A stretch of 64,000 bases of DNA, from the NCBI GenBank assembly GCA_030141605.1, contig JAQGDQ010000643.1, positions 56,078 through 120,077 on the forward strand, given 5' to 3'. A model generated the notes under the pieces. The model was not told the DNA's origin. It made no database searches and saw only the letters and a program-made list of their open reading frames with translations. This document shows, piece after piece, positions 14,801 to 17,800 of the stretch. The position numbers and the translations under genes are program-made. The DNA comes from Tubiluchus corallicola (lineage: Eukaryota > Priapulida > Priapulimorpha > Priapulimorphida > Tubiluchidae). How positions within the stretch are numbered: position 1 is the stretch's first letter; each line of letters opens with the position of its first letter.

Positions 14801-17800
14801 TCTTAACTTTTTATTTCCCTTCTGTTTTTAAAGGTGCTTAAGTTGTATGCATGGGAACTGCCCTTCCAGGATCAAGTTCTAGGAATTCGCGAAAAAGAGT
14901 TACAAGTGTTGAAAACCACGAATCTTCTTAACGCCTCTATTGGTTTTTCTTTTAGTTGCGCACCGTTTTTGGTAAGTTCAAAATTCATGATCTCTTACAT
15001 CGTAATGACCCCACTTAATGACCATTATTTTAGTGACATTTCGTTTGACAACGATAATTTTCTCATTTATTTAAAACTGGTTTTATTGATGAGCTTTTAA
15101 CTTTCTTGAAGTAGTTAAATATTGTGCCTGTTCTGTTGCCAATTTCTATGAAGTCACTAGCCCAATGTAGACCTACCATACTTACACATTGTGTTGCCAC
15201 TTTCTGTGAAGTCACTAGCAATGTAGACCTACCGTACTTACACATTGTGTTGCCACTTTCTGTGAAGTCACTAGCAATGTAGACCTACCGTACTTACACA
15301 TTGTGTTGCCACTTTCTGTGAAGTCACTAGCAATGTAGACCTACCGTACTTACACATTGTGTTGACATTTTCTGTGAAGTCACTAGCAATGTAGACCTAC
15401 CGTACTTACACATTATGTTGCCACTTTTTATGAAGTCACTAGCAGTGTAGACCTACTGTGCTTACACATTGTGTTGCCACTTTTTCTGAAGTCACTAGCA
15501 ATGTAGACCTACCGTACTTACACATTGTGTTGCCATTTTCTGTGAAGTCACTAGCAATGTAGACCTACCGTACTTACACAATGTGTTGCCACTTTCTCTA
15601 AAGTCACTAGCAATGTAGACCTACCGTACTTACACAATGTGTTGCCACTTTCTCTAAAGTCACTAGCAATGTAGACCTACCGTACTTACACAATGTGTTG
15701 CCACTTTCTCTAAAGTCACTAGCAATGTAGACCTACCGTACTTACACATTGTGTTGCCATTTTCTGTGAAGTCACTAGCAATGTAGACCTACCGTACTTA
15801 CACATTGTGTTTCCACTTTCTCTAAAGTCACTAGCAATGTAGACCTACCGTACTTACACATTGTGTTGCCACTTTCTATGAAGTCACTAGCAATGTAGAC
15901 CTACCATACTTACACATTGTGTTGCCATTTTCTGAGAAGTCACTAGCAGTGTAGACCTACCGTACTTGCACATTGTGTTGCCACTTTCTAAAGAAGTTGC
16001 TAGTAAGATAGATGTTCAATGCTTACGCATTGTGTTGCCACTTTCTATGAAGTCACTAGCAATGTAGACCTACCGTACTTACCGCATTGTGTTGCTAACT
16101 TGCCATCGTCTAAAGAAATTTCAAGAAACAGCATTAAGTAAAACATTGCTCGATGAAATGTGTTAAAATTAGTACAGACTGTTGTGATGAAAAATGACGA
16201 CGTATTTTACTTGAGGTTCCTAAATTTTTTAATTAGTCGTTGTTTACAGTTTTATGTGAAACATAGTATGTGCTCATCCGGGTTATCATAACATAATTTT
16301 TCAGGTTGCTCTAATGTCGTTTGTGGCATACGTAGTGTCCGATCCGACGCACATTTTAGACCCGCAAACCGCTTTTGTGTCTCTTAGTTTATTCAATTTA
16401 CTCAGGATACCAACAGCATTATTACCGTTAATTATTGCTTTATCTGTTCAGGTACAACCAGAGTGTTTTAATAACCTTCATGCTGGTTCAGTGTTTCCAT
16501 GTATTTAGTCAGAATGCATTTAATCTTTATGATCAAAAGTTTCGCATAAATTTGCTAATTTCTTACGTTTGTTATTTTGTTCATTAGATCCTTTACTGGC
16601 TAAATTCATGTAAACATTGAATTCTACTAGTTATTTCGATGCATGTTAAAGTTTACACATGCATGTAATTATTCATTTTTTCTGACCTGTAGGTGGCTCT
16701 CATGTCATTCACAAGCTATGTTCTGGTTGATGAGAAAAACATTTTGTCAGCTGACAAGGCTTTCGTTTCTCTATCCCTTTTCAACATTTTGCGTCTTCCG
16801 CTAACTCTGCTTCCTCTTGTAATAGCTCTTTCTGTGCAGGTATTGCAACTAATGATTAATGTACTAATAAGGTGTGACGGGTAATTAGTGTAGGTGGGTT
16901 ATTTTACCTTGAGAAGGTGGAAATCCTATGGTTGGCAGTATGTAAGGAAATGAAATCATATCTCGGTTTGTCGGATAAAAGTGGGGAGACGTCTGTCCGA
17001 ATTTGCCGATTGTCCATATTTTCCGATACTAAGCAAGTACAGTAGGCACGTCTCTCATGCCGTGTATGAGACTTACAGTAATGTAGAATCAATCATCTAA
17101 TTGTCTCAAAAACATCTGGTACAAGCTGCTCCTATGCAAAAATATGTAAAAACTGTCGGCAATTGACTCAAATAATTCCACATAATTGATTCAATATTTT
17201 TATGCATAGAGATATACGCCTGGTTACACTGATTTACGTGATGTAAACAAAGTGACGGCCCGCCAACTAGCGGTCAGCTTGTGAAATAATGGACTGTGTC
17301 TGTATTATGTGGGACTTTATAATGGTCCAGATTTTGTCCGATTCTCCCAATATCCGTAAAAGTGACATCCGGCAAACCGAGATGTAAGCGTATATTTGAA
17401 AATATTTCTATGCCAGCTGTAGAGGTATCAAGTTATTAACATTGCAAGATGTTTAGCACTGATAATTATGAATAACTGACTCTTTCATTTTACTAAACTG
17501 CACTAACATTTGCAATATTGACAGCATTATATTGTGTGGGTGTTTTGTCTCGCAGTAACCATTACGTTAAATGACTGTGACAGATATTTGGTCACCATAA
17601 CTTCATCTAATGAGAAAAATAAAGAAATTAATCACCGGAAGCTGACGAACACTTGCTTAAAAAATTTGGCTTCTGCGGGTTTAGAAAACTTTCTCACATG
17701 AGCAGCGAAAATACCATTGGATTTATGTACAATGTTTAATATGAACTTTCTTAATTGAACATTGGTCTTCTACTGATATCAGCTTAGTCCACTAAAAGTG

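Follow-up and report, generated by a model that had tools for sequence, protein, structure and literature searches.

Conjugated toxins, drugs and metals are all substrates of MRP pumps. As reported in passages of PMC6071210 and PMC7434440 that refer to Yue et al. 2017 (RNA Biol 14:1399), MRP genes of different animal phyla have duplicated exons in tandem independently of one another. According to the second of these sources, again citing Yue et al. 2017, same-length mutually exclusive mrp-1 exons arose independently in helminths, annelids and molluscs, and the first places the MRP1 docking site downstream of the exon cluster. The variable exon cluster of Drosophila MRP, which the original prediction had brought up, is indeed described in passages of PMC9741552 and PMC6071210; one fly mrp isoform is named ‘8a 4b’ (PMC6185855, passage found), and the title of Grailles et al. 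2003, as it stands in the reference list of PMC2680897, mentions two variable internal exons. In the protein structure, the event of fly mrp and that of worm mrp-1 fall in the same region (PMC9741552, legend to Fig. 5). The original prediction had proposed that such a choice between exons is either ancient or has arisen twice; the second of these histories is nearer to what is in print, since the passages citing Yue et al. 2017 speak of repeated independent origins.

In the passages found in surveys of insect and crustacean ABC genes (PMC3560195, PMC3724490, PMC4587908, PMC2680897, PMC8956072), MRP exon clusters are not mentioned; among these passages, only those of the salmon-louse paper note alternative splicing forms, for some ABC genes. 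Exon pairs of this kind are already known in MRP genes, and what is added here is a clear further case together with a pattern across paralogous genes.

The transporter gene and its neighbourhood

The window, by which we mean the whole stretch of 64,000 nucleotides that was analysed, corresponds to bases 56078-120077 of contig C2165 in a 343.5-Mb genome of 2344 contigs. Searches of this genome for COX1, mollusc haemocyanin and arthropod cuticle families gave no match; the last two families had no match in any control genome either, which makes them weak hints at most. On the plus strand of the window, at about 5.5-42.4 kb, we recognised 24 exon segments, with exon 13 counted in both its versions, in the order TMD0 part-TMD1-NBD1-linker-TMD2-NBD2.

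5509..42379, + strand: ABCC1/MRP1-like gene, from the TMD0 part to the end of NBD2 (span of the 24 recognised exon segments)

These limits give the reach of the recognised segments, and the true first and last coding bases may lie outside them. When nine first-half segments, with 13b, were joined and used as a query, the top matches were MRP1 PDB chains (E 1.1e-120), with ABCC3 (4.4e-111) and ABCC2 (2.3e-89) both behind; for the second half of the gene the comparison consisted of one TMD2 exon, and the NBD motifs were judged by eye. The domain order and the closeness to MRP1 over other ABCC proteins mark the gene, as judged from its sequence, as an ABCC1/MRP1-type transporter.

Several features of the gene and its surroundings were noted along the way. 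In the NBD1 H-loop of the window gene (22885-23262, + strand) the switch histidine is replaced by Asn; its paralogues on other contigs read VLVTHG (C2019), ILVTHG (C1219 and C1024) and LLVTHS (C2049). NBD1 is part of the degenerate ATP site in MRP1-type pumps, so activity of the window gene may persist despite the replacement. The same NBD1 stretch forms one open block in the window gene versus two tblastn blocks in C2019, C1219, C1024 and C2049, which points to a possible loss of an intron. The introns are rich in minisatellites, with 27 partly overlapping TRF rows between 4700 and 42500 (+ strand) and a maximum of 30 copies, reached by a 29-bp unit at 40450-41327. An intronless HSP70 frame of 654 codons (53784-55745, – strand; Pfam PF00012, E 5.6e-257) follows downstream in the reverse orientation, and another minus-strand frame, at 47209-47490, contains SGRRHQIRVH, which we take to resemble the motif of RluA-type pseudouridine synthases and which makes this frame a candidate member. 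A scan of the window with Rfam gave no match reaching the gathering score, and a promoter/terminator scan of 16000-16200, of a type irrelevant for a eukaryotic gene, returned nothing.

Structure, position and conservation of the two exon copies

The two versions of exon 13 stand between an upstream and a downstream exon that are common to both. The numbers 12-14 are the labels of the original prediction and 9, used below, was chosen for the TM6-7 exon; they serve as names and were not counted along the gene.

14834..14971, + strand: exon 12, common upstream exon; ends in phase 0, donor gtaagt (translation, junction check, tblastn)
15134..16095, + strand: minisatellite with 17 copies of a 56-bp unit, intronic, between exon 12 and 13a (TRF)
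16305..16451, + strand: alternative exon 13a, 147 nt, 49 residues (tblastn, MRP1 alignment, junction check)
16452..16692, + strand: intron between 13a and 13b, 241 nt (junction check)
16693..16839, + strand: alternative exon 13b, 147 nt, 49 residues (tblastn, MRP1 alignment, junction check)
17961..19362, + strand: minisatellite with 23 copies of a 61-bp unit, intronic, between 13b and exon 14 (TRF)
19518..19602, + strand: exon 14, common downstream exon; donor gtaagt (tblastn with paralogue exon 14, junction check)

An ag stands before each copy and a gt after it, and the frame of each is open in phase 0-0; joining exon 12, either copy and exon 14 keeps the frame without stops. The copies share 33 of 49 residues and 81 of 147 bases, the base differences falling on codon positions 1, 2 and 3 in 22, 9 and 35 cases, respectively. 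A tblastn search of the window with either exon peptide recovers the other copy (E 2e-17). A DNA repeat finder with a minimum length of 25 nt did not call the pair and returned only two families, both from the neighbouring minisatellite. The first residue of 13b is V; its codon, GTG, counts as a start in the default code of the translation tool, so that M stood there in some of the comparison queries. Coordinates, frame and junctions all agree with the two adjacent 147-nt, GT-AG, phase 0-0 exons with 33 of 49 residues identical that were originally predicted. The original prediction saw the differences concentrated in one helix end and a loop, and 11 of the 16 differing residues (exon residues 7, 8, 11, 12, 14-16 and 19-22) do map to the end of TM10, the loop and the start of TM11; the other five (32, 35, 37, 38 and 43) lie within TM11.

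Searches against PDB chains aligned 13b with MRP1 residues 561-607 (best E 8e-13) and 13a with residues 560-607 (best E 2.6e-10; 9j9f_A numbering for both). The aligned stretch starts at the end of TM10 and takes in the outer loop as well as TM11, so that both copies are placed where they had been assigned from the letters alone, in the helix 10-11 region of an ABCC1-like gene. Human ABCC1 exon 13 is 147 nt long, a figure of which we make no evidential use. The identities to MRP1 are 27/49 for 13a and 33/49 for 13b, and those to C1219 are 23/49 and 32/49. By this comparison 13a is the more diverged copy and could be a minor or condition-specific one, which counts against the explanation that we favour below.

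At the positions of MRP1 R593, F594 and N597, 13a and 13b read R/R, I/L and A/T, respectively, in a hand count from the alignments. Both R593 and N597 are presumably of functional importance in MRP1. Passages of PMC10305233 describe a TM11-TM17 link through Phe594 at the MRP1 substrate site, and residues 600-605 are given as the C-terminal end of TM11 in a passage of PMC7877750. With the equivalents of F594 and N597 differing between the copies, different substrate ranges of the two isoforms seem plausible; interchangeable cavity exons would give one gene pumps of different substrate preference.

Between 13a and 13b, pS is 0.875, that is, synonymous sites are saturated, and pN is 0.300. Neutral simulation with 1.0 substitution per site (5000 runs) kept no more than 21 of 49 residues, and 16% of the copies remained open. 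A pN this low at saturated synonymous sites suggests that both copies were long held by selection, and in this one genome both look kept by purifying selection, which bears out the earlier view that both are under selection.

Duplicated exons in sister genes

A whole-genome search found single exon-13 relatives on contigs C2019, C1024, C1219 and C2049; the 13b query alone also matched more distant ABCC exons on C809 and C1911. The four sister genes were screened for tandem pairs by tblastn with window segments and with each gene's own exons on the fetched regions. This screen took in 23, 22, 23 and 20 of the 24 segments in C2019, C1024, C1219 and C2049, respectively, and its counts hold for these recognised segments, which do not include the first TMD0 exons or short exons. 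By tblastn, four of the five ABCC1-like genes were found to have one clear tandem pair apiece, and three different transmembrane exons are affected.

Window gene: exon 13 (TM10-11), 33/49 identities, intron 241 nt
C2019: exon 9 (TM6-7), 32/59 identities, intron 166 nt
C1024: exon 9 (TM6-7), 37/59 identities, intron 39 nt
C2049: TMD2 exon aligned with MRP1 1075-1130, 42/56 identities, intron 61 nt (counted to the acceptor ag)

For the three sister pairs, pN/pS values are 0.314/0.916 (C2019), 0.194/0.603 (C1024) and 0.144/0.736 (C2049). No tandem pair was found by tblastn among the 23 of 24 recognised segments of C1219. A second match to the C2019 TMD0 exon, 11 residues long and with no exon around it, was taken as chance, as were antisense, short and NBD1-NBD2 matches in the searches with own exons. 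In the passages available from the open-licence literature searched, we found no report of sister ABCC genes with such pairs spread over three exons. With three different exons doubled across four sister genes of one genome, the family offers a small, self-contained setting for asking whether exon duplication can stand in for gene duplication and vice versa.

Contig C469 was excluded from the gene count, as it is allelic to C1219 (96-98% identical, C469:1-10000). From about base 7844 it continues into inverted, distant sequence of the C1219 region, just before the place where exon 13 is expected; this rearranged end is either a haplotype inversion or an assembly error. The minus strand of C1911:650501-660500 carries an ABCC-like gene in one open frame of 1689 codons; its relatives are intron-rich, and it is a possible retrocopy.

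The identity of 13a and 13b (67%) is about equal to that between paralogues over the aligned rest of the gene, where the window gene is 70.7% identical to C2019, 67.3% to C1219, 63.2% to C1024 and 59.7% to C2049. Both C2019 and C1024 have a 13a-type loop, SDPxHxL, in their single exon 13; a 13b-type loop, VDExN, recurs in C1219 and mammalian MRP1. The tree of the 49-residue exon prefers 13a together with C2019 and C1024 over 13a and 13b as sisters (AU p 0.58 vs 0.31); the sister alternative not being rejected, we did not adopt a date for the exon duplication relative to the gene split. The ends VALMSF and IALSVQ are common to 13a and 13b and absent in the four paralogues. Bootstraps of 58-76 leave the gene tree weakly resolved, and MRP1 is represented in it by 252 of 1099 columns. 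The exon-9 tree joins the two C1024 copies as sisters in 94 of 100 bootstraps, its only well-supported pair, so that this duplication looks separate from that of C2019, whose copies do not group (support 16-50 at the relevant nodes).

Because 13a-type and 13b-type loops recur in the single exon 13 of different paralogues, the window pair may predate the split of the family. In a tentative picture that we consider rather unlikely on present data, the ABCC1-like family of this animal gains diversity in its substrate cavity from doubled exons as well as doubled genes: the four paralogues with a pair would each have doubled one of three transmembrane exons (TM6-7, TM10-11 or a TMD2 helix pair), in apparently separate events and with the window pair older than the split. 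If it is true, a choice made by alternative splicing would have been partly fixed into separate genes.

Splicing of the pair and rival explanations

We consider it highly probable that the TM10-TM11 exon of an ABCC1/MRP1-type export pump was duplicated in tandem long ago and that the two copies have been kept as mutually exclusive alternatives. Each mRNA would then contain 13a or 13b, and the two resulting pumps would be distinguished by the end of TM10, by the extracellular loop and by five positions within TM11, a helix that has a share in the MRP1 substrate site. This explanation is based on the exon limits, the frame, homology, purifying selection and similar duplications in three sister genes. 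The copies would be spliced in one at a time, the choice between them would presumably be regulated, and the handling of substrates would be altered accordingly with the exon chosen. Mutual exclusivity is likely by analogy, both with the known class in MRP genes and with the equivalent paralogue pairs that have 39- and 61-nt introns.

Passages of PMC5740500 use a donor-to-branch-point distance below 50 bp as the criterion for steric exclusion. The 39-nt intron of C1024 falls under this limit outright and the 61-nt intron of C2049 probably does, while the 241-nt intron of the window gene need not; the short introns suit a steric mechanism, which fits C1024 and perhaps C2049. The donors of 13a (gtacaa) and 13b (gtattg) match gtaagt more poorly than those of exons 12 and 14. 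Weak donors are not special to the pair, since the single exon 13 of C2019 (gtttgt) and of C1024 (gtattt) also lacks gtaagt. A search for RNA pairing among the introns revealed no duplex better than in shuffled sequences: the best middle-downstream duplex was equalled or bettered by 36 of 60 shuffles, the best middle-upstream one by 16 of 60, and the best duplexes in three comparisons of unique intron parts by 57, 58 and 59 of 100. A pairing mechanism is neither supported nor excluded by these figures.

A motif search of the middle intron gave two suggestive hits.

16640..16645, + strand: TGCATG, first in the middle intron (motif search; suggestive only)
16660..16665, + strand: TGCATG, second in the middle intron (motif search; suggestive only)

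We take this hexamer to be the Rbfox-type site UGCAUG. Its two copies lie 20 nt apart within 241 nt, at least two copies being seen in 0.57% of 20,000 shuffles, and one more copy is present in the inter-exon intron of C2049. Among the hexamers of the four inter-exon introns taken together (387 positions), TGCATG comes first, with 3 copies against 0.148 expected (uncorrected p 4.9e-4). Over the whole window gene there is no enrichment (14 seen vs a shuffle mean of 17.0). As the motif was picked after sight and fails correction for the number of hexamers, an Rbfox switch was not accepted and is mentioned as a lead only.

In favour of mutually exclusive use, including both copies would repeat 49 residues (loop and TM11), and skipping both would lose 49. 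The lack of intron pairing above shuffles counts against it, as do two properties of the locus. With both exon lengths divisible by three, NMD would not act against wrong forms, and the frame permits single, double or no inclusion. Moreover, the 241-nt intron is of spliceable length and carries branch-point-like matches close to its 3′ end. Joint inclusion of 13a and 13b with a doubled TM11 segment, or their use as independent cassette exons, would be compatible with both properties. However, double inclusion would put an extra loop and an odd transmembrane helix into a conserved fold, and the introns of C1024 and C2049 are too short, or nearly so, for joint splicing; we regard this possibility as very unlikely. 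It is also unlikely, if a little less so, that one copy is expendable or decaying and a single exon, probably 13b, is used. The greater distance of 13a from both MRP1 and C1219 would agree with such a history, but both frames are open and the splice sites intact although synonymous sites are saturated, and neutral simulations do not yield copies with a pN of only 0.30.

The assembly does contain a contig allelic to C1219 with a rearranged end, and collapsed alleles or misjoined paralogues might in principle produce a spurious pair. Yet 13a and 13b lie 241 nt apart on one contig, in a window without N, and share ends that the four paralogues lack. Their identity is far under the allelic 96-98%, and the next best genome locus is 61% identical to 13a or 67% to 13b, all of which makes an artefact exceedingly improbable. 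Taken as a whole, the pair is real, selected and probably mutually exclusive, and the pattern among the paralogues lifts the case above the routine.

The locus resembles the metazoan MRP clusters of Yue et al. 2017 in that these, too, are tandem, same-length exons in MRP1-type genes; according to the passages citing them, those clusters are guided by pairing, whereas intron pairing in the window gene is not above that of shuffles. Drosophila mrp (CG6214) is likewise an ABCC/MRP family gene with a mutually exclusive exon cluster, of eight exons (passages of PMC9741552 and PMC6071210) versus two in the window gene. In Caenorhabditis elegans, too, an exon of the MRP1 orthologue mrp-1 has been duplicated in tandem, an event that is described as unrelated in origin to that of the fly (PMC9741552, passage found).
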